From assembly GCF_041276405.1 (NCBI RefSeq), contig NZ_JBGGGT010000002.1, forward strand, positions 3,776,501-3,840,500: a DNA stretch of 64,000 bases, written 5' to 3'. Below the pieces are notes generated by a model. The model was not told where the DNA came from. It worked only from the letters and a program-made list of their open reading frames with translations, and made no database searches. Made by a program: the position numbers and the translations under genes. This DNA is from Microvirga sp. TS319 (GTDB taxonomy: Bacteria; Pseudomonadota; Alphaproteobacteria; Rhizobiales; Beijerinckiaceae). Position 1 is the first letter of the stretch. The number at the start of each line of letters is the position of its first letter. This document shows positions 11,854 to 41,827 of the stretch, one piece after another.

Positions 11854-12945
11854 TCATTCATTATCGGCGAGAATGGCAGCGATTACGGCATCCGTGACCT
11901 GACGTGTCGTCGCGGCTCCTCCAAGATCGGGCGTATGGAGACCCTGATCTGCCGTGACCCGCTCGATGGCTCTCATGAGGCGGTCGGCGGCGGCCTTTTC
12001 TCCAAGATGCTCCAGCATCATGGTCGCCGACCAGAACGTCCCGATCGGATTGGCAATCCCTTTCCCCGTGATATCGAACGCAGAGCCATGGATCGGCTCG
12101 AACATCGATGGGAATCTCCGCTCGGGGTTGAGATTTGCCGTCGGCGCAATGCCGAGCGAGCCCGCGAGAGCGGCCGCGAGGTCGGACAGGATGTCGGCCT
12201 GCAGATTGGTCGCCACGATGGTATCGAGGGTCCAGGGTTTGAGCGTCATGCGCATCGTCATGGCGTCGACGAGCATCTTGTCCCAGGTCACATCAGGATA
12301 ATCCGCCGCAACCTCGGCGGCAATTTCATCCCACATGACCATGCCATGCCGCTGTGCATTCGACTTCGTGACGACCGTCAGGAGCTTGCGCGGACGGGAA
12401 CGGGCCAGCTCGAACGCAAATCGCATGATCCGCGTAACGCCGGCCCGCGTGAAGATCGTCACCTCCGTAGCGACCTCTTCCGGCAATCCTCGGTGTGACC
12501 GCCCGCCCTGACCAGCGTACTCACCCTCCGAATTCTCGCGGACGATAACCCAGTCGAGATCCTTTGATCCGACATTCCGCAATGGTCCTTCGATGCCCGG
12601 CAGAATTCGGGTCGGGCGCACATTTGCGTACTGGTCGAAGGGCTGGCAGATCGCAAGGCGCAACCCCCAGAGCGTAATATGATCGGGCACGTCGGGAGCG
12701 CCGACAGCACCGAAATAGATTGCATCGAATGGCTTCAGAGTTTCCAGGCCATCCTCCGGCATCATGATCCCATGCCGCTTGTAATAGTCCGATCCCCAGT
12801 CGAAGGCTTCGAAACTGAGCCGGAACGTCCCTTCCCGCTCGGCAAGCGCATGGAGAACCTCAACGCCTGCGGAAATAACCTCCTTGCCGATTCCATCGCC
12901 CGGAATGCTTGCGATTCTATAGTCCTTCACGATCATCTCCCGCAT
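11854..12945 (-). CDS. tartrate/D-malate dehydrogenase-like decarboxylating DH, copy 1
   Basis: This 363-residue enzyme belongs to the isocitrate/isopropylmalate dehydrogenase superfamily. It has the cofactor-end motif SIPGDGIGKEV, substrate Arg residues (NVRPTRILPG), VRENSEGEYAGQGG and the metal-site region NLQADILSDLAAALAG. In most members the last reads NLFGDILSD, so the QA pair is unusual. Family members oxidise and decarboxylate (2R,3S)-hydroxydicarboxylates with NAD+ and Mn2+/Mg2+. Closest in type are tartrate and D-malate dehydrogenases. GAGG lies 7 bases before the ATG at 12945. It follows copy 2 and the PdxA-like gene in the same direction, probably as one operon. Confidence 0.85.
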   Translation of the reverse strand: MREMIVKDYRIASIPGDGIGKEVISAGVEVLHALAEREGTFRLSFEAFDWGSDYYKRHGIMMPEDGLETLKPFDAIYFGAVGAPDVPDHITLWGLRLAICQPFDQYANVRPTRILPGIEGPLRNVGSKDLDWVIVRENSEGEYAGQGGRSHRGLPEEVATEVTIFTRAGVTRIMRFAFELARSRPRKLLTVVTKSNAQRHGMVMWDEIAAEVAADYPDVTWDKMLVDAMTMRMTLKPWTLDTIVATNLQADILSDLAAALAGSLGIAPTANLNPERRFPSMFEPIHGSAFDITGKGIANPIGTFWSATMMLEHLGEKAAADRLMRAIERVTADQGLHTPDLGGAATTRQVTDAVIAAILADNE

Positions 12946-12994
12946 GGGTTGGCCTCAGCCACCCAGCCCAACGTTTCTTCTTTGCACCGCATCT

Positions 12995-14077
12995 TCAGCT
13001 GAGCGCCTCAGCAACGGCCTTTCCGGTCGTCTCGGTATCCGCGTTTCCTCCGAGGTCACGCGTCCGGAGCGTCCGTTCGCTCAGGGTGCTCTCGATGGCT
13101 CTCACAATGGCAGCAGCAGCTTCGCTTTCTCCAAGATGCTCAAGCATCATCGCACCTGCCCAGATCTGGCCGATGGGGTTTGCGATCCCCTGCCCTGCAA
13201 TATCCGGGGCCGATCCGTGAACGGGCTCGAAGAGAGATGGAAAATGACCAGGAGGATTGATGTTGCCCGAGGGTGCAATGCCGATCGTTCCGGTACAGGC
13301 AGGCCCGAGATCGGACAGAATATCGCCAAAGAGGTTGGAAGCGACAACGACGTCGAACCAGTCAGGATGCAGAACGAAATGGGCGGTCAGAATATCGATA
13401 TGATATTTGTCCCATTTGACATCCGGGTAGTTCCTGGCCATGGCCTCGACGCGATCGTCCCAGTACGGCATGGTGATCGAGATGCCATTCGATTTCGTAG
13501 CCGACGTCAAATGCTTCTTGGGCCGCTTCTGGGCCAGGTCGAACGCGAATTGCAGGACCCGGTCGACGCCGATGCGCGTCATGACGGTCTCCTGGATGAC
13601 CACTTCACGCTCCGTGCCCGGGAACATTTTTCCCCCGATAGAGGAATACTCGCCCTCCGTATTCTCGCGGACGACCCAGAAGTCGATGTCGCCGGGCTTG
13701 CGATTTGCAAGCGGCGTAGGAACGCCAGGCATCAGGCGCACGGGGCGCAGGTTGATATACTGGTCGAACTCGCGCCGGAACTGAAGCAGCGAGCCCCAGA
13801 GCGAGATGTGATCCGGGATCTTGTCCGGCCAACCGACGGCCCCGAAGAAGATGGCGTCGTGATTGCCGATCTGCTCCTTCCAATCCTCCGGCAGCATGTG
13901 ACCATGCTTGGCGTAGTAATCGTAGGATGAGAAATCGAAGTGATCGAGTTGCAGGTCGAATCCGAACTTCGACGCTGCGACCTCCAGCACGCGCACGCCT
14001 TCCGGGACGACCTCCTTGCCGATGCCGTCTCCCGGAATGACGGCCAACCGGTACTTCCTCTTCTGTTCCAGAGACAT
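12995..14077 (-). CDS. tartrate dehydrogenase/decarboxylase-like protein, copy 2
   Basis: This 360-residue paralogue keeps the canonical motifs: VIPGDGIGKEV, INLRPVRLMPG, VVRENTEGEYSSIGG and NLFGDILSDLGPACTG, followed by HGSAPDIAGQGIANP. These match TtuC/DmlA-type enzymes acting on tartrate or D-malate with NAD+. I start at ATG 14077 (MSLEQKRKY). The 17 extra residues back to 14128 are unlike the family. It lies 49 bases upstream of copy 1 and 109 bases downstream of the PdxA-like gene. Of the three paralogues in the island it is the least divergent and so the safest functional call. Confidence 0.88.
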   Translation of the reverse strand: MSLEQKRKYRLAVIPGDGIGKEVVPEGVRVLEVAASKFGFDLQLDHFDFSSYDYYAKHGHMLPEDWKEQIGNHDAIFFGAVGWPDKIPDHISLWGSLLQFRREFDQYINLRPVRLMPGVPTPLANRKPGDIDFWVVRENTEGEYSSIGGKMFPGTEREVVIQETVMTRIGVDRVLQFAFDLAQKRPKKHLTSATKSNGISITMPYWDDRVEAMARNYPDVKWDKYHIDILTAHFVLHPDWFDVVVASNLFGDILSDLGPACTGTIGIAPSGNINPPGHFPSLFEPVHGSAPDIAGQGIANPIGQIWAGAMMLEHLGESEAAAAIVRAIESTLSERTLRTRDLGGNADTETTGKAVAEALS

Positions 14078-14159
14078 CGCTGACACCTGTGAAGCGCTTA
14101 ATACTTTGCTTTTCGGGCACTCGACCAAAGCATGACGATCCTGCCGAGGCCCGTTCGAT

Positions 14160-14201
14160 CAGGCCGCCATCATCAGGCCGCCATCATCAGGCCGCCATCT
14201 T
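14160..14201. repeat. three tandem 14-bp units at the PdxA-like stop codon
   Basis: CAGGCCGCCATCAT is present three times in a row (the third ends CTT). On the minus strand the unit reads ATGATGGCGGCCTG, and the PdxA-like gene ends inside the array with its TGA at 14187-14189. The unit is not a multiple of 3, so copy-number change would alter only the tail. Confidence 0.85.
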
Positions 14202-15224
14202 GGCCTTTTCGGCTCCCGCCAGCCTTGCAGCAAGGCGCACGGCATTCTCCAATGCGCCGGTGGAGGCAATGCCCTTGCCGACGATGTCGAACGCGGTTCC
14301 ATGTGCCGGGGTCGTGAAGACCGCCCCAAGCCCGGCCGTGACCGTGACGCCCCGGTTGAAACCGCGCAGCTTCGTCGCGATCTGCCCCTGATCGTGGTAC
14401 ATGGCGACAACTCCATCATACTCGCCCGCAAACGCCTTCAGGTAAACCGTGTCGGCGGGAAACGGACCCCGGCAGTCGATTCCGCTCTGCGCGGCGGCGG
14501 CTACCGCGGGAGCGATGATCTCGATCTCCTCGGTTCCGAACAGTCCTCCCTCCCCGGCATGCGGATTGAGCGCCGCGACAGCCAAGCGCGGCTTCGCGAT
14601 GCCCGCCCGCCTCATGGTACGGTCGGCCAGTTGGATGGCGTCCGTGATGCTCTGGGCGTTGATCTGCTCGATGGCCTGCCGCAGAGAGACATGGGATGTC
14701 ACCCGCGACATCCATTGATCGTCGAGGACATTCATCTCGGAGAAATATCCACGGTGATCGAGAAGGTGGGCGAACATCTTGTGCTCGTCCGGAAAGTGCC
14801 ACCCTCCGGCGTGGAGAGCCGCCTTGTTGAGCGGCGCGAAGGTGATAGCGTCCACCTCACCCCGTTGTGACATCGCAATGGCATACGCCAAGGTGTCCCC
14901 TGTCAGGCGGCCCGACTCGGCCGAGACGACACCGCGGGGCAAGCTCGTCGGATCGATGTTCTTGAGATCAACGACAGGGACATCCGGGCAGCTCCAGTCG
15001 ATTTCGGAAACCGATGAAACGGCACGCCAGGACAATGATGCTCCCGCATCTCGCATGCCCTGCTCCAGAACCCGCACGTCTCCGACCACCATGAGGCGAG
15101 CTGCATCGTTCAGGCGTCCATCCGACAGGACGCGAGCGCACTGCTCCGGCCCGATTCCCGTGTAGTCGCCGAGCAGGAGCGCGATTCGGGGCAGTGCCTG
15201 CCCTTCAGTGCTTGATACCGCCAC
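14187..15224 (-). CDS. PdxA-like dehydrogenase (PdxA2 subgroup)
   Basis: This 345-residue protein has the PdxA fold landmarks: LLGDYTGIGPEQ, VTSHVSLRQAIEQI, the metal-binding NPHAGEGGLFGTEE, MYHDQGQIATK and GTAFDIVGKG. PdxA oxidises 4-phosphohydroxy-threonine, while PdxA2-type paralogues act on phosphorylated or diol acids in catabolism. The substrate loop FPDEHKMFAHLL differs from the GHTE of biosynthetic PdxA, and the context is catabolic, so vitamin B6 synthesis is unlikely. The GTG at 15224 has AGGGGAA about 6-9 bases upstream. It is the first gene of a probable operon with the two tartrate-DH-like genes, under the palindrome at 15346. Confidence 0.8.
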   Translation of the reverse strand: MAVSSTEGQALPRIALLLGDYTGIGPEQCARVLSDGRLNDAARLMVVGDVRVLEQGMRDAGASLSWRAVSSVSEIDWSCPDVPVVDLKNIDPTSLPRGVVSAESGRLTGDTLAYAIAMSQRGEVDAITFAPLNKAALHAGGWHFPDEHKMFAHLLDHRGYFSEMNVLDDQWMSRVTSHVSLRQAIEQINAQSITDAIQLADRTMRRAGIAKPRLAVAALNPHAGEGGLFGTEEIEIIAPAVAAAAQSGIDCRGPFPADTVYLKAFAGEYDGVVAMYHDQGQIATKLRGFNRGVTVTAGLGAVFTTPAHGTAFDIVGKGIASTGALENAVRLAARLAGAEKAKMAA

Positions 15225-15345
15225 GTTCAGAGTTCCCCTTACCGATGAGTGCCGCTCAGGGTGAAGCCAATGGAATTCTCGCCCGCCTGGCCACCTGAGG
15301 CATGTACCGGAAGCATGGCAACTCACAGAAAATAGTCAATGGAAG

Positions 15346-15357
15346 ATTGTTGACAAT
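15346..15357. promoter_or_regulatory. candidate GntR operator ATTGTTGACAAT
   Basis: The inverted repeat ATTGT-TG-ACAAT sits in the divergent gap between the PdxA-like gene (122 bp from its start) and the dehalogenase-like gene (51 bp before its ATG). The same motif recurs at 20827, 25716, 26622 and 32777, each next to a promoter of the island. The TTGT..ACAA core fits FCD/FadR-type GntR sites. Confidence 0.7.
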
Positions 15358-15407
15358 TTACGAAATTGGCTCGACGTTTGCGCTGTGTCCAACCTGGATG
15401 ATCAGTG

Positions 15408-16391
15408 ATGAACAGACCTTTGTTCGAGCGGAACGCTTCCATGCCGCCCCTGAGCGCTCATGGCAGCTCGTTGATGGAAGGCTTCACCTACAAGACCATC
15501 GAGACGTCGGGTGCTAAAATCCGCGTTGCCGTCGCGGGAAATGGTCCGCCCCTTCTTCTTCTTCACGGCAATCCGCTGACACATGTGAGCTGGCACAAGA
15601 TCGCTCCAAGCCTCGCGAAGAGTTTCACCGTGGTAGCGCCTGATCTACGCGGCTATGGCGACAGTTCCAAGCCTGACGGCGGCTCGGAGCATGAGGCGTA
15701 TACGTTCCGAGCCATGGGGCAGGACAACTTTGAGGTCATGACCGCCCTGGGCTTCGAGCGTTTTGCCGTTGCCGGCCATGACCGTGGGGCGCGCGTCGCC
15801 TTCCGCATGGCTCTGGACGCTCCGGACAGGATCGAGCGCATCGCCGCCTTGGACATCGTGCCGACGCACCATGTGCTGACCAATGTTACGCTTGGATGGG
15901 GTCTTGAGGCGTATCACTGGTTCTTCATGGCGCAAAAGGCCCCTTTTCCCGAGAAGCTGATCTGCGCCGATCTTGATTATTACATCCACTACAAACTCAA
16001 TAAGAAAGGCGTCGGCCTCGAGATCTTCTCGCCCGAAGCCATGGCCGAGTATGTGCGCTGCACGACGCCTGAACAGATCCATGCGGTTTGTGAGGATTAC
16101 CGTGCGACCGTCACGCTCGACCTCGCCATGGACCAGGCGGATTTCGGCGTGAAGAGCATCTCTTGCCCGGTCCTGGTCCTCTGGGGATCGAACAGTCATT
16201 GCGGCCGCCACTTCAAGCCTCTGGAAGCCTGGGAGCCCTGGGCTCCGGATCTGAGGGGCTGGGCCATTCCCACGGGCCACTACCCTGCAGAGCACAGACC
16301 GGATCTTGTCTATTCCGCATTCTGGACTTTCTTCACGGGAGGCGAGCCGGCACCGTTCAGCGGGCACGTCGAGGAAACTGCGGCGCCGTGA
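15408..16391 (+). CDS. fluoroacetate-dehalogenase-type alpha/beta hydrolase
   Basis: This 327-residue alpha/beta hydrolase carries the full constellation known from fluoroacetate dehalogenases: nucleophile Asp125 in GHDRGAR with Arg126 and Arg129 for the carboxylate, acid Asp149 in ALDIVPT, His170-Trp171 in AYHWFFMA and Tyr231 in CEDYRA for the halide pocket, and His291 in PTGHYPAEH. Spacings of 24 and 45 residues from the nucleophile agree with characterised enzymes as I recall them. The expected reaction is hydrolysis of a haloacetate to glycolate and halide, but some homologues hydrolyse other short acids. The ATG at 15408 follows a GTG; the RBS is weak. It overlaps the rhodanese gene by one base, so the two are co-translated. 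Confidence 0.82.
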   Translation: MNRPLFERNASMPPLSAHGSSLMEGFTYKTIETSGAKIRVAVAGNGPPLLLLHGNPLTHVSWHKIAPSLAKSFTVVAPDLRGYGDSSKPDGGSEHEAYTFRAMGQDNFEVMTALGFERFAVAGHDRGARVAFRMALDAPDRIERIAALDIVPTHHVLTNVTLGWGLEAYHWFFMAQKAPFPEKLICADLDYYIHYKLNKKGVGLEIFSPEAMAEYVRCTTPEQIHAVCEDYRATVTLDLAMDQADFGVKSISCPVLVLWGSNSHCGRHFKPLEAWEPWAPDLRGWAIPTGHYPAEHRPDLVYSAFWTFFTGGEPAPFSGHVEETAAP

Positions 16392-18088: not shown

Positions 18089-19183
18089 TTAGGCGACTGC
18101 GCGCGTGTCTTCCTCGATGTTCCGGACGATAGCGCGGGTCATGTCTCCAGTCCGCCCGGTCCCACGGATATCGCCGGTGCGGCTTGCGGGATCCATCAGT
18201 GTCCGGGTCATTGCCCGTTCCATGGACGCGGCGGCGGCAATCGCTTCTGGGACCTCGCGAGCATGGCCAAGCCAATCGAAGAGCATGCGGGTCGACTCGA
18301 TCATGGCATACGGGTTCGCAATTCCCTTCCCGGCGATATCTGGCGCCGAGCCATGGGTCGCCTGCGCCATGGCAATGTTGCCCTCGCCGATGCAGAGACC
18401 GGGCGCCATGCCGAGCCCCCCGACGAGACCCGCAGCCTCATCGGACAGGATGTCCCCGAACATGTTCGTGGTCACGACAACGTCGAAGCTCTGCGGATCC
18501 CTGACGAGGCGCATCGCGAACGTGTCTACGATGACATCGTCGACGACCACATCAGGATACTCCTGCGCGGCGCGCTTGCACTCCTCGACGAACATGCCGC
18601 ATCCGAGCTTGAAGACGGTGTCCTTGTGAACGAAGGTCAGGTGCTTGCGCCGGTGCCGAGCAAGCTCGAGGGCCGCCTTGGCGACACGATAGCTGCCCGC
18701 ACGCGTGATGACGCGGACGGAGATCGTCACGTCCTCGGTTGGACGGAATTCGCCCGAACCCGCAACGACGTTCCGATCCGGCTGGAACCCCTCATTGTTC
18801 TCGCGCACGATGATGAGATCAACATCGTCATGGAGGCAGCCGATATCCGGATAGGACCGTGTCGGCCGCACATTCGCGAAGAGATTGAAGTGCTTGCGCA
18901 GGATCGGGTGAGGATTAATCGCACCCGGACCGCGCGGATAGGCCCGATGCCCAATCGGCCCGAGAATCCAGCCGTCCAGCGCCGTCAGCGTTTCAAGTGT
19001 CCTGTCGGGCATTGTCGAACCATGAGTATCAAGAGCCCGTCGACCAATCGGCACGGAAATCCAATCGATCGACAGATTATGGCGACGTGCCGCCGCTCTG
19101 GCCACTTCGACGGCTGCCGGAACCACCTCATGGCCGATATCGTCACCCTCCAAAATTCCGATCTTGAGAGTCTTACTGCTCAC
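18089..19183 (-). CDS. isocitrate/isopropylmalate DH family protein, copy 3 (divergent)
   Basis: This 364-residue member of the beta-decarboxylating dehydrogenases differs clearly from copies 1 and 2. The N-terminal loop reads LEGDDIGHEV instead of PGDGIGKEV, the signature is IVRENNEGFQPDRN, and the metal region NMFGDILSDEAAGLVGG is standard. The HGSAPDIAGKGIANP block is intact. Changes in the substrate loop suggest a different (2R,3S)-hydroxyacid substrate. I chose GTG at 19183, which follows GGAGAAAGAAC; the open frame to 19291 lacks family residues. It lies downstream of a MmgE/PrpD gene in the same direction (157-base gap) and may share its promoter. Confidence 0.82.
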   Translation of the reverse strand: MSSKTLKIGILEGDDIGHEVVPAAVEVARAAARRHNLSIDWISVPIGRRALDTHGSTMPDRTLETLTALDGWILGPIGHRAYPRGPGAINPHPILRKHFNLFANVRPTRSYPDIGCLHDDVDLIIVRENNEGFQPDRNVVAGSGEFRPTEDVTISVRVITRAGSYRVAKAALELARHRRKHLTFVHKDTVFKLGCGMFVEECKRAAQEYPDVVVDDVIVDTFAMRLVRDPQSFDVVVTTNMFGDILSDEAAGLVGGLGMAPGLCIGEGNIAMAQATHGSAPDIAGKGIANPYAMIESTRMLFDWLGHAREVPEAIAAAASMERAMTRTLMDPASRTGDIRGTGRTGDMTRAIVRNIEEDTRAVA

Positions 19184-19340
19184 TGTTCTTTCTCCGCTTC
19201 TGAGACCAGCGATGTCGGCCAATCCGGTCAGTGGATCGTAGGCCGTCGCAACAAAATGAAAGCGCCGGGCCCCGCAGGGCCACAGCGCCATGGGGAGGGT
19301 TCGTCATGCCGAACCCTCGTGCCGAATGCGGCAGTGGCGC

Positions 19341-20759
19341 TCAGTCCTTGAGGCGCAACCGGCTCATCAGCTGATCGATCGACTTGAGGGTCTCGAGATC
19401 CCGCACCATGGCCACGACATCTTCGGCTTGCTGACGCGGGAAGCGGGCAAACTCCGCGCATTCACGGAATTTGTTGGAGACCTCCTCATAGGTCATGGGA
19501 TTCGACGGGCTTCCTTTACCGAAATCGGCGCGCCCGGAAACCTTTCGGCCATCGGCAAGCTCAATGTCGATGATCGTCGTCATCTTATGGTAACCGGCGT
19601 TCTCCGCCTCCTCGTCCACCACGAAATCGATCTTCTCGATCATCGCCCGCACATCCGGACGCAGCACCACCTCGTCGGTGAACTCGTTAAGACCGGCCCG
19701 TCCCTCCAGCAGGAGGATCGCCATGCAGAACTCCATCGAGAATTTAGCCTGGAGTTCATTCGTCGGACGGTGGTGAATGAGGGCGTTCGGCATATTGGAA
19801 TTGGTTCCGACGCGAACCCGTTTGACGTCTCCGGCGCGAATGCCGTTTTCACGAATCAGCCTTAGCATCTCGGTCATGCCCGGATGCGTCAGAGAGCCTG
19901 ACGGATGCGGTTTGATCGAGACGCCCGGATCGGCGAACGTCCATGGCGCACCGAGCTTGCCCACAATCGCATTGGGATCGAAGCCTCCGCCAGCGGCACG
20001 GAAGAAGCCGCGAGGCGCCTCTAGAATTTTATCCGTTGCCGTCCATCCGTAATTTGCGAACTGGGCGGCCGCGACACCGCTTTCGGATGAGCGCCCCGCA
20101 TGGAACGGCTTCGTCATCGTGCCGAAATTCTCGCGGAGCCCCGCGGACTGACTTCCCGCGATCGATAGGGCTCTGTTCGTTGTTTCCGGATTCAGGCCCA
20201 TCAGGCGCGATGTCGCGGCTGCGGCAGCGAAAGTCCCGCAGGTCGCGGTGGCGTGGAATCCGGTCTGGTAATGGCGTGGGTTGATCGCCTCGGCGATCTT
20301 GCACTCGACTTCGACGCCGAGATGATAGGCAAGCATGACGGAGCGGCCATCGGCGCCGACCATCTCACCGATGGCAAGAGCCGCCGGCAGCGCGGGTGCG
20401 GTGGGATGGGTGAGAAGCCCATAGACACGATCAGCCGCGACCGCGAGCTGAGTGTCGTCATAGTCGTCGGCATGGATTCCCACGCCATTGGCGAAGGCGG
20501 CGAAGCGAGGAGCAACACGCAGCGCTGTGCCGATGACGGTCGATGGACCAGCACTCAGTCCAAGATCGGCGAGATGACGTTGAACATATTCGCCCGACTT
20601 CGCAACCGACCCTGAAATCGCAAGCCCAAGCCCGTCGAGAATAGATTTCTTTCCGAGTTCGACGACGTTCTGCGGAAGGTCCGCCTCGCCTGTGTTGCAG
20701 ATGAAGTCGGCGACGTACCACGTGAGCGCGCTGTCTCCGGTTTCGACCTTCGTGTCCAT
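19341..20759 (-). CDS. MmgE/PrpD family protein, copy 1
   Basis: This 472-residue protein belongs to the MmgE/PrpD family (2-methylcitrate dehydratase, cis-aconitate decarboxylase, iminodisuccinate epimerase). It has the active-site region GVGIHADDYDDTQ, with Asp residues matching those of cis-aconitate decarboxylase, and LLTHPTAP with a conserved His. The C-terminal small domain contains RADFGKGSPSNPMTYEE. The RBS AGGAAG precedes the ATG. It is divergent from the GntR gene, with the palindrome at 20827 between them. The family acts on tri- and dicarboxylates without cofactors, but sequence does not tell dehydration, decarboxylation and epimerisation apart. Confidence 0.85.
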   Translation of the reverse strand: MDTKVETGDSALTWYVADFICNTGEADLPQNVVELGKKSILDGLGLAISGSVAKSGEYVQRHLADLGLSAGPSTVIGTALRVAPRFAAFANGVGIHADDYDDTQLAVAADRVYGLLTHPTAPALPAALAIGEMVGADGRSVMLAYHLGVEVECKIAEAINPRHYQTGFHATATCGTFAAAAATSRLMGLNPETTNRALSIAGSQSAGLRENFGTMTKPFHAGRSSESGVAAAQFANYGWTATDKILEAPRGFFRAAGGGFDPNAIVGKLGAPWTFADPGVSIKPHPSGSLTHPGMTEMLRLIRENGIRAGDVKRVRVGTNSNMPNALIHHRPTNELQAKFSMEFCMAILLLEGRAGLNEFTDEVVLRPDVRAMIEKIDFVVDEEAENAGYHKMTTIIDIELADGRKVSGRADFGKGSPSNPMTYEEVSNKFRECAEFARFPRQQAEDVVAMVRDLETLKSIDQLMSRLRLKD

Positions 20760-20826
20760 ACTCTTCCTTCCCTGGTGCTACCCTGATGGGCCTATTGGTA
20801 TTCTGAGCATTTGATATTCATTGTTT

Positions 20827-20838
20827 ATTGTCAACAAT
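20827..20838. promoter_or_regulatory. candidate GntR operator ATTGTCAACAAT
   Basis: This is an inverted repeat with exact ATTGT/ACAAT arms. It is centred in the gap between the divergent MmgE/PrpD gene (68 bp from its ATG) and the GntR gene (67 bp from its ATG). Fourteen bases (ATTGTCAACAATCT) are identical to the site at 25716. The position suits autoregulation plus control of the catabolic gene. Confidence 0.75.
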
Positions 20839-20904
20839 CTTTTGCATACTGGCCTCGGAACGCGGTATCATTTAAAGGAAGCCAAACATGTTGATGGTGG
20901 CACT

Positions 20905-24561: not shown

Positions 24562-24573
24562 GTCTTTCCTCCC

Positions 24574-33884: not shown

Positions 33885-34979
33885 TCAACGCGACAAGCGC
33901 CGTCCCATGAGAAGAGCGATTCCGGAAAAAAGCCCTATCTTGTTGAAAATCCTATAGAAGTACAATGAAAACCCATTCACGAAGAAGGCGCGAATGACCT
34001 GAAAGGCGATCACGAGCGCCACATTGAGATGGAGGACTTGCGCCGTCAGCGCCATTTCCGCCATTCCACCCGGAGAGGAACCAAGGGCAACGCTCGCAAG
34101 ATCAAGGCCTGTTATGGCGGTCAAAGCCCCGGCATAGGCAAAGAGCAGTGCCGCCAGGGCGATCGTGAACAAGGCACTGACGAGGAAAACCCGTGGGAGC
34201 CGGACCAGGCTTTCGCGTCGGAAGCGGGCCCCGATCGATACCCCGATGAGGAATTGCGCTGCGGCAAACAAGATCCCGGGAATTCGTCCGCTCAGCAGTC
34301 CCAGAGCGGCAATGAATCCTGTGCCGAGAATGGCCCCGACGGTCCAAGGATTGTTGAAGCGGAGCAGCCATGTGACCGTGACCCCGGCCAGTCCGGCCGC
34401 GAGCGCCGCCGTGACCTGAAACCAGGAAAGCTCGATCCGAGCAGCCTGATTCATCAACCCGCCATCAATCCCCAATGCAATGATGAGAGGTGGCATGAGG
34501 CAGACCAGCAAAGCGACGCGGATCGCCTGTGAGACTGCGATCGGTTCGGCCTCGGCTCCCACGGAAACGCCGATATTCGCCATTTCGGAGAGACCGCCCG
34601 GAGTGAGGGAGAAATAGGCTGTCTTATGATCGATCTTGCCCGCGATGGACATCGGCACGGACAGCACTGCGGCCAGGACGATTCCGACAAGCGCCGTCAC
34701 GACCATCCATGGGGCCCACATGACGATGGTGTCGAGAGCAGCTGCGGTGATGTTGAGGCCAATGCTCGTGCCGACGACGGCCTGCCCGAAACGCCTTCCG
34801 AGAGCAGGCGCGACGACCGGATATCCCGTAACGGACACCAATGCTGTCACGATCATGGGGCCGAGGACCCATGCAAGTGGCATATGAACATACGATGCGA
34901 GCCATCCGAGCCCCGCAGCCAGGGCAAGGCCCGGAATGGCACGCCAGAATGGGACGGGAGAGGCCGGTATCATGCGCAT
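33885..34979 (-). CDS. AbrB-family membrane protein (PF05145-like)
   Basis: This 364-residue integral membrane protein is a tandem duplication. Each half carries a GLSEMA/GGMAEMA motif (SLTPGGLSEMANIGV and SSPGGMAEMALTAQV) within about five hydrophobic segments, typical of the AbrB/ammonia-monooxygenase-regulator-like family. Family members are often beside catabolic dicarboxylate genes and may be transporters, but function is not settled. The ATG at 34979 overlaps the end of the upstream MmgE/PrpD gene by 10 bases, so the two are coupled. It could provide uptake or export for that enzyme's substrate. Confidence 0.8.
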   Translation of the reverse strand: MRMIPASPVPFWRAIPGLALAAGLGWLASYVHMPLAWVLGPMIVTALVSVTGYPVVAPALGRRFGQAVVGTSIGLNITAAALDTIVMWAPWMVVTALVGIVLAAVLSVPMSIAGKIDHKTAYFSLTPGGLSEMANIGVSVGAEAEPIAVSQAIRVALLVCLMPPLIIALGIDGGLMNQAARIELSWFQVTAALAAGLAGVTVTWLLRFNNPWTVGAILGTGFIAALGLLSGRIPGILFAAAQFLIGVSIGARFRRESLVRLPRVFLVSALFTIALAALLFAYAGALTAITGLDLASVALGSSPGGMAEMALTAQVLHLNVALVIAFQVIRAFFVNGFSLYFYRIFNKIGLFSGIALLMGRRLSR

Positions 34980-36349
34980 TGCACCAGCAGGCTACCGACA
35001 TCCTCGATCTGTTCAAGCCGCCAGACCGAATCGCGAATGCGGGATGCCCTCTCGTCTCCGATCAGCGGCACCGCGTTCGCCAGGAACTTCCCTTCAAGGG
35101 CAGCATCCGACATCGGGTTGTCGACGGTGCCGCTCGCATGGGTGACTTGGTATTCGTATCGCTCGCCGGTTCGCAAGGCGACGCAAGCCCATGCCTGATC
35201 CCGTCCGAGGCCCTCATCGGTCCTGACGCTGACGATCTCTCGCAAAGCGACGACCTCGGGCGCGCGGGCACGCTCGTCAGTGTACTGGGCGATGCCGGCT
35301 GCCCGATCCAGAAATGCGACAGCCGCAGTGTGGGTCAGGCTGAACTTCGATTTGAGACCCGTCCCAGGATCGGCCACACCCGTGATGGAGACGGCCAGAG
35401 GATTGACCCGCAACTCGATTGCAGACACCTGGTCCGGTGCGGATACCTTGGCCCGGAGGGCGATCATGGCATCGATCGTCGGATGCAGAACCACGCCGCA
35501 GGCATAGGGTTTGTGGCCATTGCGGGCGATCTCCCAGCGCCGCCCCAGCCGGTCGAGAATGAGATCCGTCTTCGCGACACTGCTGTAGATCCGGCAGAAA
35601 CCACGCTTTCCCTCGAGGATCTCGTCCGAACTGTCGAAACCGCTCTGTGCGAGCAGGGCAGCGAGAAGCCCGCTCGAGGCCGCCTTGCCGGCGTGAAGCG
35701 ACTTGCACATCGTTCCCCGGTTCTGCTGCATGCCGGCCGCCTGCGTCGCCGCAATGCCCAGGGCGTGTACCAGTTGCTGAGAATCCAGCCCAAGGAGCTT
35801 TCCAGCGGCGGCGCCCGCGGCGATCGAGCCCAGCGTCCCGGTCAGGTGCCATCCCCCTGCGTGATGAGCAGGGGCCCCCTGTCCCGTGCGGACGCCCGCC
35901 TCGAAACCGGCCGCGTAAGCCAGAAGGAAATCCTTGCCGGTGACCGGATTTCTCTCCGACAGGGCGAAGAGCGCAGCCAGAATCGGTGAGCTCGCATGGA
36001 GAACGACACCGCCCATGTGAGTGTCGTCGAAATCAAGCACATGGCCCATCTGGCCGTTGGCAATCGGGGCCTCAAGCAGCCCGAGCCTCATGTCGCGCCC
36101 GAGCACGGTCGCCCGTGGAGCGCTTCCTACCGCCTCCAGCACCGAAAGGAGCTTGGAAATCGTCGGGTGCCGGCTCCCGGCGAGAGCGCAGCCGATCCAA
36201 TCGAGAACGCCGCGACGACCTGCGTGGACGGCCGCTTCGGGCATGCTCTCGAAAGTGGCTGCGGCCATGAATGCGCACAGATCCTTGGTGACGTTCAGAT
36301 CGAGGGCCGCAGCCCCATAATCGGATTGGGATGCCGGCTGGCCGTTCAT
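34970..36349 (-). CDS. MmgE/PrpD family protein, copy 4
   Basis: This 459-residue family member has GQMGHVLDFDDTHMGGVVLHASSP, with Asp and His placed as in copy 2, and MCKSLHAGKAASSG. I prefer ATG 36349 over 36355, because GGGAGC leaves 7 bases before the later ATG and none before the earlier. It overlaps the AbrB-family gene at its 3' end by 10 bases. It is divergent from copy 5 across a 253-base gap carrying TTTGGATACATT-type half sites. Confidence 0.85.
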   Translation of the reverse strand: MNGQPASQSDYGAAALDLNVTKDLCAFMAAATFESMPEAAVHAGRRGVLDWIGCALAGSRHPTISKLLSVLEAVGSAPRATVLGRDMRLGLLEAPIANGQMGHVLDFDDTHMGGVVLHASSPILAALFALSERNPVTGKDFLLAYAAGFEAGVRTGQGAPAHHAGGWHLTGTLGSIAAGAAAGKLLGLDSQQLVHALGIAATQAAGMQQNRGTMCKSLHAGKAASSGLLAALLAQSGFDSSDEILEGKRGFCRIYSSVAKTDLILDRLGRRWEIARNGHKPYACGVVLHPTIDAMIALRAKVSAPDQVSAIELRVNPLAVSITGVADPGTGLKSKFSLTHTAAVAFLDRAAGIAQYTDERARAPEVVALREIVSVRTDEGLGRDQAWACVALRTGERYEYQVTHASGTVDNPMSDAALEGKFLANAVPLIGDERASRIRDSVWRLEQIEDVGSLLVQCA

Positions 36350-36405
36350 GGACATGCTCCCTAGGGGCGCCGTTCGGCAGAGGCCTTCAATGCGCCTTGT
36401 CTTCG

Positions 36406-36602: not shown

Positions 36603-37979
36603 ATGCATGACTCATCGAAGCCCGAGGTCCCGCACGAAAGTGCGATCCTCTCGGACTACATCGCGGGCGCTCACAGGCACGAATTGCCGGCCGATGTCAG
36701 CCTCAAAACGAAGCATCACATTCTGGATACGCTCGCGGCGATCCTGTCGGGATCACGTCTCAGGGCGGGCCGTCTCGGCGCCGCCTACGTCGCCCAAACC
36801 GGCGGGAAACCCGAAGCGACGGTGATCGGAACCTCGCTCGTCGTGCCCGCCGTCAGCGCAGCTCTGGCGAACGGCATGGCAGGCCATGCGGACGAGACGG
36901 ACGATTCCCATCTCGTGGGACGATTCCACCCCGGTTGCGGTATCGTTCCCGCAGCTCTCGCCATTGCCGAGCAGCAGGATCGCAGTGGACAGGATCTGCT
37001 GCGCGCCGTTGCTCTCGGCTATGATATCGGTGCCCGTACAACCATGTCCCTCGGCTTCAGCCGACCCGATACGGCCCGTCACAGCACCCATAGCCTGGGC
37101 CCGGCCTTCGGCGCGGCAGCGGCAGCGGCAGCGCTCCTGCGCTTCGATTCGACCCGCGTCCGCCATGTCCTGTCCTATTCGGCCCAGCAGGCCTCAGGCA
37201 TTCCGTTCTGGCAGCGGGACAAGGAGCACGTCGAGAAGGCTTTCGACTTCGGCGGCATGGGCGCCCGCAACGGAGTGGCGGCCGCGACCATGGTGGCGGC
37301 CGGCTTCTCAGCCGTGGACGATCCGTTCTCAGGCAAGCACAACCTGTTCACGGCATTCGGCGAGAACCCCGTTCCCGCCCGTCTGATCGAAGACCTGGGG
37401 TCCCGGTTCGAGATTATGCGCGCCTCGATCAAGAAATGGTGTGTGGGGTCGCCGATCCAAGCCGTCCTGGATGCGACGGTGACCCTGATCGAAACGCACG
37501 GCATCAAAGCCGACGATGTCAGGCGCGTCTTGATCACGATGCCGGATGATCGCATCCATATCGTCGACAGCCGGACAATGCCTGATGTCTGCGTACAGCA
37601 TCTTGCCGCCTTGGCGCTGGTCGATGGTACAGTCACATTCGAGAGCTGCCATGATCAGGATCGGATGAACGATCCTGCCATTCTGGCGATCCGCAGATTG
37701 ATCGAACTCGTTCCAAGCGCCGAACTGACGATTGCAACCCCGGCAAGACAGGCCATCGTAGAGATCGAGACCACCGGCGGACGCCACCTCCGTCATCATG
37801 CGAAAGCCGTTCGCGGCACTCCCGAGAATCCGATGGACGGCAGCGAAATCGAAGCAAAGGCCCTCGATCTTGTGGTCCCGATTATCGGCGAGGAGAGAGG
37901 TCGCACGCTCGTCGAGACCGTGCTGCGACTGGACCAACTCCCTAAAGTGAGCGGCCTTCGGCCTTTGCTGTCCGCCTAG
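36603..37979 (+). CDS. MmgE/PrpD family protein, copy 5 (divergent active-site region)
   Basis: This 458-residue family member reads GMAGHADETDDSHLVGRFHPG where the others have DFDDT/DYDDT, so the aromatic residue is replaced and the acidic spacing shifts. The rest follows the family (QQASGIPFWQRDKEHVEKAFDFGGMGARNG). The GFWQR/FGGMGARNG segment is found in a subgroup distinct from citrate-type PrpD. GAGAGGACAGTCTC precedes the ATG. It is transcribed away from copy 4. The substrate probably differs from that of copies 2-4. Confidence 0.83.
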   Translation: MHDSSKPEVPHESAILSDYIAGAHRHELPADVSLKTKHHILDTLAAILSGSRLRAGRLGAAYVAQTGGKPEATVIGTSLVVPAVSAALANGMAGHADETDDSHLVGRFHPGCGIVPAALAIAEQQDRSGQDLLRAVALGYDIGARTTMSLGFSRPDTARHSTHSLGPAFGAAAAAAALLRFDSTRVRHVLSYSAQQASGIPFWQRDKEHVEKAFDFGGMGARNGVAAATMVAAGFSAVDDPFSGKHNLFTAFGENPVPARLIEDLGSRFEIMRASIKKWCVGSPIQAVLDATVTLIETHGIKADDVRRVLITMPDDRIHIVDSRTMPDVCVQHLAALALVDGTVTFESCHDQDRMNDPAILAIRRLIELVPSAELTIATPARQAIVEIETTGGRHLRHHAKAVRGTPENPMDGSEIEAKALDLVVPIIGEERGRTLVETVLRLDQLPKVSGLRPLLSA

Positions 37980-38207: not shown

Positions 38208-39365
38208 TCAAGCCCCCGCCTTGGCGCCGGGAATCCCGAGCGCCTTCGCTTTCGACGGGGTCGGCTCGTGAAGCGCGCGGCGCTCCTTGGCGTAGCGAAC
38301 GAGGGCGCCGAAGCGGTAGATGCCGTGGACGAACTTGCCGTAGGGCATGGTGATGAAGAAGCCGAACACGAAGCCCATATGAAGGGCGAGCATCGTGCCC
38401 ATCGCCGGGGTCGCCCGCAGCACCAGGAGCATGAGGCCTGTCAGGCTCACCAGGAACAGCATGACGATGAACGCCATCTCCATGCCGCGCCCGTTCTCGT
38501 CGCGTAGGGCCGGATCGCGCTTGAATTTCGCCCGCATGAGGCCGGCAGGTCCGATGACGAGCCCGATCCCGCCAAGCGTCCCGAGCACCACCGGCAGGTC
38601 GTACCAGGGATAAGGCGCCTCCAGGCCGAGAAGATAGTGATAGAGGGTCGCCGTGCTGGTCGCACCAAGGCACAGGAAGAATCCGTAGAATGTCAGGTGA
38701 TGGTAGAGGCGGCGACGGTCGTTCGGCCGCTCGCCCTCGTTGAAGCAGCCGGGGCCACCGCCGTCGAGATAACGCAGCGCCATGGTGTCCTTCATGGCCT
38801 GCCAGACCGAGATGCCGCTGGTCAGCGTCTCCCGCGTCTCGCCGATGTCTCGCCAGAACATGCGAAAGCCCATGATCAGCGCCGCAATCGCATAGAAGAA
38901 CGCAGCCCCGAACACGCCCGCCATCGCGTTGTGCGACATGATCCGGTAGAACGCGCCGGGGCCCGTCTGCACGCCGAACATGACGGCCGGATCGTTGATC
39001 GCCATCAGGCCGAAGAAGAAGGTGCCGACACTGAGCGCCGCGATGAGGCTGATCGCCAACCCGTTACGCTCGAACAACGGCGCCAGCGCCCGCGGCCAGA
39101 CGTAGACCTTGTACGAGTCGTTGCGTACCTTCGCGAGCGTCTGCGGGACGTTGACGTTGAACTCGTGCGGCGGCGAGAACTGGCAGTCGGTGTAGCAGGC
39201 CCCGCAGCTGTGGCAGAGATTGGCCAGATAGTTGAGATCGCCGTCCGAGAAGGCGCGCCGCATTTCCATAGCGGGAAAAACCGCACAGAGTCCTTCGCAG
39301 TAGCGGCAGGAGTTGCAGACCGTCATGAGACGATCGGCTTCCTTGAGTGCTTCAGTCGCGTGCAT
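38208..39365 (-). CDS. tcuB: tricarballylate utilisation Fe-S/membrane protein TcuB
   Basis: This 385-residue protein has two ferredoxin-like clusters near the N-terminus (CNSCRYCEGLC and CHSCGACYTDC) and about six hydrophobic segments after that, the architecture of TcuB (CitB). In Salmonella, TcuB reoxidises the FAD of tricarballylate dehydrogenase TcuA and passes electrons to the quinone pool. The ATG at 39365 has GGGAGG 9 bases upstream and overlaps the tcuA 3' end by 14 bases, so the pair is coupled. Histidines in the membrane part may carry heme or quinone sites. Confidence 0.9.
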   Translation of the reverse strand: MHATEALKEADRLMTVCNSCRYCEGLCAVFPAMEMRRAFSDGDLNYLANLCHSCGACYTDCQFSPPHEFNVNVPQTLAKVRNDSYKVYVWPRALAPLFERNGLAISLIAALSVGTFFFGLMAINDPAVMFGVQTGPGAFYRIMSHNAMAGVFGAAFFYAIAALIMGFRMFWRDIGETRETLTSGISVWQAMKDTMALRYLDGGGPGCFNEGERPNDRRRLYHHLTFYGFFLCLGATSTATLYHYLLGLEAPYPWYDLPVVLGTLGGIGLVIGPAGLMRAKFKRDPALRDENGRGMEMAFIVMLFLVSLTGLMLLVLRATPAMGTMLALHMGFVFGFFITMPYGKFVHGIYRFGALVRYAKERRALHEPTPSKAKALGIPGAKAGA

Positions 39366-40737
39366 TCTTCGCAGCCTCCCGTCCGGCAATCCGCCCGAAG
39401 ACGCTGCCGATTGTCATTCCGATGCCGGCGGCATATCCCTTGCCGAGGACGTTTCCGGCCATGATTTCCCCGGCCGCGAACATGTTGGCTGAAGGAGAGC
39501 CGTCGGCCATGAGCATCCGGGCCTCCTTGTTCACGCGTGTGCCCAGATAGGTGAACGTGATGCCCGGGCGGACCGGGTAGGCATAGAACGGAGCCGTCCC
39601 GATCCGCTTGGCCCAATGGGTCTTTGCCGGCGTCAGCCCTTCGGTCCGGCAGTCATCCAGGATCGTGTGGTCGAACGTGCCGGGGCGGACGGCCTGGTTG
39701 AAGGTTGCGACCGTGGTCTCAAGTGCCTGCGGGTCGAGCCCCAGCTTATCCGCGAGCTCACCGATGCTGTCCGCCTTCAGGGGCGGATAGAGCGACGGCA
39801 TGAAGAGTTCGAGCGAGGGTCCATCAAAGATGATGTAGGCGATCTGATCGGGTTGGGCAGCGACGAGCCGCCCCCAGATGGCGTAGCGCTTCGGCCAGAT
39901 GTCCTCGCCCTCGTCGTAGAAGCGCTCGGCGTTCTTGTTCACCACGATACCAAAGACGACGCAGTCGAGCCGGGTGATGATGCCGCCGTCGAATTTCGGC
40001 GCCCGAGCGTCGATCGCCACCGCATGACACTGGGTGGGATCGCCGATCTCCTGCACGCCCTTGTCCAGCAGCATCTTAAGGACCGAGCCGCGGTTGTAGG
40101 GCGTGCCGCGGATGAGAAAGTTTTCGGCGATGTCGCCCCAATACTGCTTCAGCCATGCGATATTGGCCTCGAAGCCGCCTGCAGCTGCCACAAGGCTCGA
40201 CGCATGCACTTGGTGCCGCTGCCCGCCATACGCGACTGTGGCCGACTGGAACTTGCCGCCCTGAATATCGAGGTCGACGACTTCCGCGTCGTAGAGCACG
40301 TCGACGCCGAGGTCCTCCGCCGTGCGGTAGAGTGCGTTGAGCATCGCCCGCCCTCCCCCGAGGAAGAATGAGTTCGTGCGCCCAAGGCTGAGCGTTCCGC
40401 CGAGAGACGGCTGCCATCGCACGCCCTGCTGGACGATCCAGTGCAGGATCTCCTTGGACTCATGGATCATGAAACGGGCGAGCTCCTCGTCGGTCTGGCC
40501 GCCCGTCACGCGCAGAAGATCGTCCCAGAATTCCGCCTCGGTATAGGGACCAGTCAGGATCTCGGTCGCCGTATCGTGGGCGCAGCGCATGTTGCGCGTG
40601 TGGCGGGTGTTGCCGCCGCGGTAGAACTTGGGAGCGGCCTCGAGCACGAGCACGGAGGCCCCCGATCGGCGAGCGCTGATGGCCGCGCAGAGTGCCGCGT
40701 TGCCGCCGCCGATCACGAGCACATCGTAATGGCGCAT
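39352..40737 (-). CDS. tcuA: FAD-dependent tricarballylate dehydrogenase TcuA
   Basis: This 461-residue flavoprotein has the N-terminal Rossmann motif VIGGGNAALCAAISARRSG and EAAPKFYRGGNTRHTRN, with the C-terminal FAD cap GKGYAAGIGMTIGSVFGRIAG. TcuA oxidises tricarballylate to cis-aconitate; related enzymes oxidise other saturated polycarboxylates. The frame is open to 40959, but that extension runs through a dispersed repeat, so ATG 40737 (MRHYDVLVIGG) is taken. It is co-transcribed with tcuB. Tricarballylate is the best-known substrate for this pair but not proven here. Confidence 0.88.
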   Translation of the reverse strand: MRHYDVLVIGGGNAALCAAISARRSGASVLVLEAAPKFYRGGNTRHTRNMRCAHDTATEILTGPYTEAEFWDDLLRVTGGQTDEELARFMIHESKEILHWIVQQGVRWQPSLGGTLSLGRTNSFFLGGGRAMLNALYRTAEDLGVDVLYDAEVVDLDIQGGKFQSATVAYGGQRHQVHASSLVAAAGGFEANIAWLKQYWGDIAENFLIRGTPYNRGSVLKMLLDKGVQEIGDPTQCHAVAIDARAPKFDGGIITRLDCVVFGIVVNKNAERFYDEGEDIWPKRYAIWGRLVAAQPDQIAYIIFDGPSLELFMPSLYPPLKADSIGELADKLGLDPQALETTVATFNQAVRPGTFDHTILDDCRTEGLTPAKTHWAKRIGTAPFYAYPVRPGITFTYLGTRVNKEARMLMADGSPSANMFAAGEIMAGNVLGKGYAAGIGMTIGSVFGRIAGREAAKNARD

Positions 40738-40816
40738 CAATTCGACCGGAATATTGCGCGAACCAGCGCCTGCCGATGCGGGTTCGAGCTGTGCCGTCGA
40801 TGGCAGCTCTCGCGCT

Positions 40817-40932
40817 AGAGCATCGGGCCCAAAAGTGGCCTCCACTTTTGGGGTCGATTCGATGCTCCCACGATAGGACAGCGCATCGTTTGCTGCGAAA
40901 AACCGGGTCCACTTTTTCGCACGGTGCGCTAG
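40817..40932. repeat. dispersed palindromic repeat, full two-module copy
   Basis: AGAGCATCGGGCCCAAAAGTGG to TCGATTCGATGCTC, then GCGCATCGTTTGCTGCG to TTTTTCGCACGGTGCGC. It fills much of the 409-base gap between tcuA and the second GntR gene. Apart from this and the operator at 41059, the gap shows no gene. Confidence 0.85.
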
Positions 40933-41058
40933 TGCAACTCCACCTGTCATCTGCCCCAACCTCCTGCAGGCGTATCAGTGTAACCCCCGCCAGAGCCTTC
41001 GCTCGGCCGGAATCCTCATGCGTTCGGCAGCAAAGCTTGGCTTGAGCTTTTGCGCACG

Positions 41059-41070
41059 TTTGTATACAAA
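41059..41070. promoter_or_regulatory. candidate second-type operator TTTGTATACAAA
   Basis: A perfect 12-base palindrome lies 77 bases before the GntR start at 41147 and upstream of the divergent tcuAB operon. The arms share TTGT/ACAA with the first motif, but the centre is AT instead of CA/TG/CG. The position suits autoregulation. Confidence 0.7.
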
Positions 41071-41146
41071 AATATCCAAATGAGTGCCCTGGTCAAGTAT
41101 GATCTTCTTTGCTTCATAGACCAGAATATCGACCACAGGAGCGTGC

Positions 41147-41827
41147 ATGTCGGATCACGTCCATAACGACCTGAAGTTGGTCGACCGGGACACCGGAATT
41201 CCTCTCAGCGAGGCCGTCTTTCGCTCGCTCTGCCAAGCCTTGCGCGCAGGTATCTACCGCCCGGGAGACCGGTTGCGGGAAGAGGAAGTCGCACAACGGC
41301 TCAAAGTCAGCCGCACTCCCGTTCGGGAGGCGTTGGGGCGACTGATGGCGAAGGGATTGGTGGAGCCCGCAGGCGGCCGCGGTCTCATCGTTCGCAGTCT
41401 CGGCACGGCCGAAGTGCTGGAACTCTACGCCATGCGGGAGATTCTCGAGGGTGCGGCAGCTCGCCTGGCGGCGCAGCATGCATCGCAACCCGAGATCGAT
41501 GCCCTCAGGGATCTCGAGGAAGCCTTCGAGACGCACCTCGAGGATTCCGTCGAGATGGCGCGCCTCAACCGGGCGTTTCACGAGACGATCTTCCGTGCCG
41601 CCCGAAACCGTTACCTCGACAGCGCCCTTCAGGAGCTTCAGGACGGAATTTCCCTTCTCGGCCCCACGACCTTCAGCGTCGGAGGCCGGCCCACGACAGC
41701 GGCCGAGGAGCACCGGGCTCTCATCGAGGCCATCGCAGCCCGCGACCCCGATCTGGCCGAGAGGCTCGCGAGGGCGCATATCCAAGAGGCCCTGCGCTCC
41801 CGACTGAAGCTGATCCAAGCCCGGTGA
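41147..41827 (+). CDS. GntR family regulator, FCD subfamily (second intact copy)
   Basis: This 226-residue regulator has an HTH at about residues 20-85 (YRPGDRLREEEVAQRLKVSRTPVREALGRL) and an FCD domain with FHETIFRAARN and a metal-type EEHRALIEAI...RLARAHIQEAL. Aligned by eye with the 20905 protein it differs strongly in the recognition helix (SRTPVREAL against SRGPVREAC), which fits a different operator centre. CAGGAG lies 5 bases before the ATG. It probably responds to a carboxylate and controls tcuAB, the two divergent MmgE/PrpD genes and the SDR; that is inferred from sites at 33775, 36406 and 41059. Confidence 0.87.
   Translation: MSDHVHNDLKLVDRDTGIPLSEAVFRSLCQALRAGIYRPGDRLREEEVAQRLKVSRTPVREALGRLMAKGLVEPAGGRGLIVRSLGTAEVLELYAMREILEGAAARLAAQHASQPEIDALRDLEEAFETHLEDSVEMARLNRAFHETIFRAARNRYLDSALQELQDGISLLGPTTFSVGGRPTTAAEEHRALIEAIAARDPDLAERLARAHIQEALRSRLKLIQAR

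Follow-up and report, generated by a model that had tools for sequence, protein, structure and literature searches.

Results

Gene content of the island

We analysed a stretch of 64,000 nt from Microvirga sp. TS319 (the window, in whose coordinates all positions are given), which carries an island of catabolic genes at 11.85-41.83 kb within a genome of 6.26 Mb. Five of these genes encode MmgE/PrpD proteins (PrpD1 to PrpD5), and they are accompanied by decarboxylating dehydrogenases, a hydrolase of the fluoroacetate/haloacetate dehalogenase family (ABH), importers and GntR-type regulators. The gene families, their joint recurrence in other genomes and a palindrome shared by several of their promoters are directly established. 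The sequence data lend good support to a co-regulated module for polycarboxylate use and, on balance, lead us to favour the view that most of the block (11.85-32.7 kb) represents one patchily distributed, GntR-controlled catabolic regulon through which substituted C4-dicarboxylates would be taken up and undergo stereoconvergent oxidative decarboxylation; the SDR and AbrB/PrpD4/PrpD5 genes would belong to it more loosely. The island comprises the following genes:

11854..12945, minus strand: TTC1, a decarboxylating dehydrogenase of the tartrate dehydrogenase family, distinct subtype (TIGR02089)
12995..14128, minus strand: TTC2, a tartrate/D-malate-type dehydrogenase (TIGR02089)
14187..15326, minus strand: PdxA-like dehydrogenase, assigned from solved relatives and scoring under the cut-offs of all NCBIfam models matched
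15405..16391, plus strand: ABH, an alpha/beta hydrolase of the fluoroacetate/haloacetate dehalogenase family (family match, alignment)
~16391-17962, plus strand: RHOD, with four rhodanese domains (domain matches)
18089..19291, minus strand: DH3, a dehydrogenase of the isopropylmalate/isocitrate family, subtype unassigned (family match, loop)
19341..20759, minus strand: PrpD1, an MmgE/PrpD protein of the iminodisuccinate-epimerase type (domains, alignment)
20821..21594, plus strand: GntR1, an FCD-type regulator (family match)
21735..25638, minus strand: Fbp/Phn2-type (Fbp/PhnT2-type) ABC importer, consisting of ATPase, solute-binding protein and fused permease
25902..26575, minus strand: second GntR, frame-broken near 26.27 kb
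26714..28078, plus strand: PrpD2, iminodisuccinate-epimerase type
28180..29571, minus strand: PrpD3, final gene of the TctCBA unit
29647..32710, minus strand: TctA, TctB and TctC, a tripartite tricarboxylate importer (domain matches)
32865..33623, minus strand: SDR oxidoreductase, FabG-like
33885..34979, minus strand: AbrB_dup membrane protein, overlapping PrpD4 by 10 bases
34970..36355, minus strand: PrpD4
36603..37979, plus strand: PrpD5
38208..40959, minus strand: TcuB-TcuA, a tricarballylate-type unit (TcuB from 38208, TcuA from 39352)
41147..41827, plus strand: GntR3

A gap of 49 bases separates PrpD1 from DH3, which follows it on the same strand, and the domains of TctA, TctB and TctC all exceed the gathering score, identifying a tripartite tricarboxylate transporter. 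A first-pass annotation, made from the letters and open reading frames (ORFs) of the window, had listed the five MmgE/PrpD genes, three dehydrogenase-family genes, the PdxA-like gene, TcuAB, TctCBA, the Fbp-type importer, the AbrB protein and three GntR genes, all of which we find in place. The break that it saw in one GntR is likewise real: for the second GntR, beside PrpD2, an intact relative aligns in two frames meeting near 26.27 kb, and in a relative the open frame spans 239 codons. Overlooked at that stage were ABH, the four-domain rhodanese and the SDR, and it is the putative hydrolase ABH that narrows the chemistry.

Recurrence of the gene set in other genomes

With orthologues called at an E value of at most 1e-110, PrpD1 is rare and scattered, occurring in 4 of 159 other genomes in a sample of the order, in 4 of 47 further Microvirga and in 8 of 384 further genomes in a sample of the class. 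We compared 19 PrpD1 loci in addition to the window, taken from 16 genomes and three plasmids (Neorhizobium NCHU2750, Phyllobacterium zundukense and Pacificitalea manganoxidans). As scored by tblastn with identity thresholds of our own setting, which are loose for AbrB (29%), RHOD and SDR, DH3 recurs in 14 of these loci, ABH, SDR and PrpD3 in 12 each, TTC, TctA and AbrB-type genes in 11 each, PdxA in 10, PrpD2 in nine, the Fbp ABC importer in eight, RHOD in seven, PrpD5 in five and PrpD4 in three. The prospect, named in the first-pass annotation as one that would undo a joint unit, that the genes are never conserved together is thus not borne out. The recurring families are shuffled in order and strand, at least three PrpD copies are present in 12 loci and a single copy in five, and among the 15 loci outside Microvirga DH3 is found in 10, TTC in nine and ABH in eight. 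In the class sample, ABH and DH3 each occur in four of the 384 other genomes, which are the same four and all PrpD1-positive (p = 8e-8 and 1e-9 for the co-occurrence of ABH, DH3 and PrpD1, uncorrected for kinship and with four to five candidates scored per genome).

Some loci are compact, with each part in a single copy. Rhizobium BK313 has GntR-TctCBA-PrpD3-SDR-PrpD2-DH3, and Rhizobium BK376 adds ABH, PdxA, TTC2, GntR and the Fbp ABC importer to this set. Beyond the island families, three ORF families occur in at least four PrpD1 loci: a sixth PrpD type (six loci), a second AbrB type (eight) and a 389-residue family (four) that belongs to the enolase superfamily and resembles sugar-acid dehydratases, with talarate/galactarate dehydratase nearest and scores below every NCBIfam cut-off. 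Variant loci contain a malic enzyme (L070, 6217-7512) or two enolase-superfamily proteins (L044, 11301-14751), which by their family membership point again to chemistry of the malate, tartrate or sugar-acid type. A further enolase-superfamily protein is encoded at 14541-15710 of L085. Both rhizobial plasmids also carry a chromate-transporter gene pair inside the module (L081, 24899-26000; L082, 25956-26991). In the open-access literature, we found no description of this gene combination.

A palindrome shared by island promoters

The palindrome ATTGT-NN-ACAAT occurs with at most one mismatch at five places in the 64 kb, against 0.46 expected, and every one of them lies in a promoter gap. These predicted operators are:

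15346..15357: ATTGTTGACAAT, exact, in the divergent gap between PdxA and ABH
20827..20838: ATTGTCAACAAT, exact, in the divergent gap between PrpD1 and GntR1
25716..25727: ATTGTCAACAAT, exact, upstream of the ABC operon
26622..26633: ACTGTTGACAAT, one mismatch, upstream of PrpD2 and the broken GntR
32777..32788: ACTGTCGACAAT, one mismatch, 66 bases ahead of the start of TctC (TctCBA-PrpD3)

Since the second of these sites overlaps the beginning of the GntR1 ORF as called, the true start of GntR1 probably lies near 20905. At two mismatches, the window contains 18 sites against 9.4 expected, which makes them uninformative site by site. The whole genome holds six exact copies, three of them inside the island; the ORFs flanking the other three look unrelated when read by eye. 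An exact copy at G000:C1:597733 (L122) lies near an ORF that resembles, again by eye, a periplasmic binding protein of the urea/branched-chain amino acid type.

The palindrome was also counted in 36 related module loci (972 kb), from which, as known duplicates of PrpD1 genomes, only four PrpD2 loci had been removed. They contain 38 exact palindromes, distributed across 16 loci. Every copy is found in the 450 bases preceding an island-type gene, and these stretches together cover 10.2% of the sequence. Simulation with five Markov runs yielded 0-1 copies, and five control patterns gave none. The genes preceded by the palindrome include ABH, PdxA, PrpD1, Fbp and TTC in several genera. Among 59 other loci (G577 and 58 PrpD2 loci, 80 of 203 PrpD2 relatives having been kept), nine of 11 palindromes are located upstream of PrpD2 or GntR. 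The gap between PrpD4 and PrpD5 has the palindrome in two sister Microvirga but not in the window.

The PrpD paralogues

All five PrpD proteins exceed the Pfam cut-offs for both MmgE_PrpD domains, and their density is not a matter of chance, because the island holds five of the seven MmgE_PrpD_N matches in the genome. They share 25-40% pairwise identity (40% between PrpD4 and PrpD2), with PrpD5 being the most divergent. Their closest solved relatives are iminodisuccinate epimerase (2HP0), to which they are 24-31% identical, and Bacillus subtilis IRG1 of the cis-aconitate-decarboxylase type, whose original description is reported to have come without evidence of enzymatic activity (PMC12290011). 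The same source describes MmgE/PrpD proteins as mostly uncharacterised, the known substrates as 1,4-dicarboxylates throughout and the common step as (de)protonation at C2 via a C2 enolate (PMC12290011). As 2-methylcitrate dehydratases, the five score far too low: their best scores against NF042438 are 37-55 bits (cut-off 950), and those against NF006943 and TIGR02330 (cut-offs 575 and 458) are lower still wherever these models match.

In the numbering of the iminodisuccinate epimerase chain, the Asp pair, His99, His150, Lys198 and Lys266 are kept in all five proteins. Tyr145, which has been proposed to act as the second base of the epimerase together with His99 (PMC7347537), is retained in PrpD1 and PrpD2, so that these two appear to combine the His/Tyr pair with both lysines, and is absent from PrpD3 to PrpD5. 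Given the catalytic residues kept at 25-40% mutual identity, the five paralogues appear to be functional enzymes whose separate specificities are of long standing. The first-pass annotation had already suggested non-redundant substrates, pointing to differences in an acidic motif (DFDDT, DYDDT, ETDDS). These differences are real and paralogue specialisation is supported, but the catalytic residues are the same, and we rejected the motif as a sign of differing substrates; specialisation is clearer in the loops of the dehydrogenases.

Dehydrogenases and the hydrolase ABH

TTC1 (583.5 bits) and TTC2 (594.1 bits) pass the cut-off of TIGR02089 (470.4 bits), a family which we take to be that of TtuC/DmlA. 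DH3 stays below it (219.5 bits), as it does for all 16 NCBIfam models matched. The loop of TTC2 reads SLWGSLLQFRRE, and its RR is kept in 14 of 14 rows (LLQFRRE loop). TTC1 has TLWGLRLAICQ, placing a Cys at the position of the TTC2 Arg, presumably the equivalent of Arg94 in isopropylmalate dehydrogenase; LRLAICQ is found in 11 of 11 TTC1 orthologue rows, a twelfth row being a TTC2. DH3 has NPHPILRK, and rows of at least 65% identity to it show NPHPI(L/M)RK. The PdxA-like protein reaches 265.9 bits (cut-off 290.35), 269.6 (583) and 276.8 (470) with its best models and less with four others, and so lies under the cut-offs for PdxA and D-threonate-4-phosphate dehydrogenase, although D-threonate-4-phosphate dehydrogenase/PdxA2 are its closest solved relatives.

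The closest match of ABH is a protein of 'Microvirga sp. M2' (97%). Aligned with dehalogenases, ABH keeps the catalytic triad (D126-D150-H292) and the halide pocket (H171/W172/Y232), in agreement with the residues described for RPA1163 (PMC11022551). It differs at a second pocket position, where the Trp of fluoroacetate dehalogenases (Trp185 in RPA1163, corresponding to Trp180 in H-1) is replaced by Lys201; the spacing from the halide-binding Trp to this position is 29 in each case (156/185 in RPA1163, 151/180 in H1, 172/201 in ABH). Lys201 is invariant in 16 aligned sequences, namely that of the window, 13 of 120 listed proteins and two plasmid copies. Trp185 is described as a substrate-pocket residue of the Rhodopseudomonas palustris enzyme (PMC11465415), and smaller residues at this position of RPA1163 are reported to let bulkier acids in (PMC12955510). 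We also considered a link to fluoride riboswitches and rejected it: nine module loci gave no match to these or any other Rfam family, fluoride exporters not having been searched by name. The adjacent RHOD has, as read by eye, a single active-site-like Cys loop (CAGRTR, Cys188).

TcuAB and other neighbouring genes

At the far end of the island, TcuA (719.6 bits, cut-off 369) and TcuB (472.7 bits, TIGR02484 cut-off 246.6) pass curated cut-offs, TcuB falling short of NF011607 (468 against 524). A different palindrome lies between TcuA and GntR3:

41059..41070: TTTGTATACAAA

This site recurs in six of seven fetched loci of the nine other TcuA-positive Microvirga. TcuAB is present in only one of the 19 PrpD1 loci (43-57% identity), and in Microvirga pakistanensis, whose island is collinear with that of the window, it is found on another contig of the draft assembly. 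For these reasons, and on account of its own palindrome, TcuAB is probably a separate neighbouring unit, with GntR3 as its likely regulator. The first-pass annotation had treated the whole block as one catabolic unit; much of it is indeed recurrent and apparently co-regulated, but TcuAB is not supported as a member, and the TcuA-type oxidation once proposed as a step had to be abandoned. A link within Microvirga is possible, because TcuAB adjoins PrpD5 in Microvirga vignae as it does in the window, GntR3 remains beside PrpD5 in M. pakistanensis in the absence of TcuAB, and TcuA occurs in all four other PrpD1-positive Microvirga as compared with five of 43 PrpD1-negative ones (uncorrected for kinship).

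The island has a G+C content of 0.609, its flanks 0.622 and 0.632. On one side it borders a locus (5011-11766, plus strand) encoding a catecholate-siderophore TonB receptor, a siderophore-interacting protein and an ABC transporter of the Fec type (FecBCDE-like), on the other an ABC-F/phosphoglucomutase pair. The iron locus was rejected as a component of the module, as TonB and FecE flank, among the PrpD1 loci, only the island of M. pakistanensis. Elsewhere in the window, an ORF at 3305-4789 (minus strand) combines N-terminal LysR-type HTH matches with a remainder of the TrpD2-like glycosyltransferase family (PRK09071) in an apparent fusion, and positions 46041-46115 (plus strand) match the mmgR/suhB sRNA of Rfam (RF00519, 79.5 bits).

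Discussion

The regulon that we favour could operate as follows. GntR1, joined in relatives by a second GntR, would release the ATTGTCAACAAT operators in response to a substituted C4-dicarboxylate, which the Fbp-type ABC importer and TctCBA would take up. The PrpD proteins would abstract the proton beside a carboxylate of the 1,4-dicarboxylate and epimerise or (de)hydrate it until the stereochemistry at C2/C3 fits, while ABH may hydrolytically cleave a C-X bond (halide or epoxide) alpha to the carboxylate, giving a hydroxy acid. Acting each on a substrate of its own, TTC2, TTC1, DH3 and the PdxA-like enzyme could oxidise the hydroxyl group, with the beta-carboxylate leaving as CO2; the SDR may carry a hydroxy/keto step, and the scheme would end in ordinary 2-oxo or hydroxy acids. 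Judging from family chemistry, the likeliest substrates would be 2,3-substituted succinates, such as tartrates, 3-substituted malates and epoxy- or halo-succinates. The most interesting step of this scheme is the putative hydrolysis of halo or epoxy acids by ABH.

Several observations weigh against this reading. Two importers and up to five PrpD proteins would suit several related substrates equally well. The single complex polycarboxylate considered in the first-pass annotation is unproven. The module is a mosaic in which no gene besides the anchor PrpD1 is common to all 19 loci; five of them (G259, G289, G318, G509 and G577) lack orthologous DH3, ABH, TTC and PdxA genes near PrpD1, although the PrpD1 contig of G509 is a short one, and another contig of that genome carries adjacent ABH and DH3 genes, the latter with one internal stop. 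The exact palindrome is missing from 20 of the 36 module loci and precedes the TctC gene in one relative only (G040), and in the window the promoters of SDR, PrpD4/AbrB and PrpD5 do not have it at zero or one mismatch. PdxA relatives mostly act on phosphorylated acids, yet there is no kinase among the annotated island genes. Finally, the rhodanese has no place in the proposed scheme.

We regard a different explanation as possible but rather unlikely: several independent small pathways may have gathered in a catabolic hot spot under similar but separately acting GntR proteins, with PrpD2-DH3-SDR-PrpD3-TctCBA serving one acid, ABH-TTC-PdxA another, PrpD4-AbrB and PrpD5 others, and TcuAB tricarballylate. 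Such a division is suggested by betaproteobacterial loci (e.g. L009, L014, L017, L022 and L024) that have PrpD2 and DH3 (55-56%) without ABH or PdxA, by an Oxalobacteraceae locus combining PrpD2-SDR-PrpD3 with malic enzyme, by the rarity of PrpD4 and PrpD5 and by the separate palindrome of TcuAB. It sits poorly, however, with the finding that in several genera one palindrome precedes the ABH, PdxA, PrpD1, Fbp and TTC genes, and with the exact co-occurrence of ABH and DH3 in the class sample.

A doubtful alternative puts hydrolysis first. ABH would open trans-epoxysuccinate, or cleave a halosuccinate or a fluorocitrate-like acid, to give a tartrate or a hydroxy-polycarboxylate, which TTC2, TTC1 and PdxA would decarboxylate, with the PrpD proteins correcting stereochemistry. 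The dehalogenase triad and halide pocket of ABH are consistent with this route, its invariant Lys201 would suit a second carboxylate, and the gene shares its palindrome and position with PdxA/TTC; moreover, (2S,3S)-trans-epoxysuccinate is reported to be made by fungi (PMC12568646). On the other hand, the solved relatives of ABH also carry epoxide hydrolase or acyltransferase names, so that a family name cannot settle the reaction; seven of the 19 PrpD1 loci yielded no ABH, and the nine loci searched are free of fluoride riboswitches. A shade less probable again is the far-reaching version in which horizontal transfer would have spread the module as a pathway devoted to alpha-halogenated or epoxidised polycarboxylates (trans-epoxysuccinate from fungi, halosuccinates and perhaps fluorocitrate), leading from a new dehalogenase-fold hydrolase with a carboxylate-binding pocket Lys to stereospecific decarboxylating dehydrogenases, including the Arg-to-Cys subtype of TTC.

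Iminodisuccinate degradation needs a C-N lyase partner. A variant of iminodisuccinate/EDDS or 2-methylcitrate/itaconate/methylsuccinate catabolism is very improbable and was set aside, even though iminodisuccinate epimerase is among the closest solved PrpD relatives and PrpD1 and PrpD2 keep its His/Tyr pair: the annotated island genes, to which this search was confined within the genome, include no aspartase/fumarase-type C-N lyase, methylcitrate synthase or lyase, nor any of the CoA transferase, hydratase, citramalyl-CoA lyase and acyl-CoA dehydrogenase listed for the methylsuccinate/itaconate pathway (PMC12290011), the sole recurrent ORF outside the island families encodes an enolase-superfamily protein, and the 2-methylcitrate dehydratase scores are far under the cut-off.

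The gene module connects at least three PrpD proteins (in 12 of 19 loci) with certain dehydrogenases, with a hydrolase of dehalogenase fold and with importers, and thus provides a short, testable list of uncharacterised enzymes, while the palindrome could serve as a reporter for quick substrate finding. To our knowledge, only enzyme activities are on record for trans-epoxysuccinate hydrolase chemistry. Should ABH act on epoxy- or halo-polycarboxylates, it would provide a gene for such chemistry or a natural route of defluorination.

Several parts of the island have counterparts in known systems. As in tricarballylate utilisation, TcuA and TcuB are accompanied by a divergent GntR, but here they stand beside a recurrent module, apparently not in it, and their palindrome differs from that of the module. 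Among the operators known for the GntR family is the TNGT-NN-ACNA type, to which the palindromic ATTGT-NN-ACAAT of the promoter gaps, a predicted operator, would be similar. Whereas TTC2 combines a passing score for the tartrate/D-malate dehydrogenase family with an LLQFRRE loop, TTC1 passes with LRLAICQ, and DH3, with NPHPILRK, falls outside it. With iminodisuccinate epimerase, methylsuccinate isomerase, cis-aconitate decarboxylase and 2-methylcitrate dehydratase, the PrpD proteins share both domains and the Asp pair, His99, His150, Lys198 and Lys266; they differ in the absence of Tyr145 from PrpD3 to PrpD5 and in lacking, among the island genes, the partners of the known pathways. ABH agrees with the fluoroacetate dehalogenases RPA1163, FA1 and H-1 and with Alr0039 in its catalytic triad and in the His/Trp/Tyr residues of the halide pocket, but it carries a Lys in place of the pocket Trp, and its gene is part of a polycarboxylate-type module.

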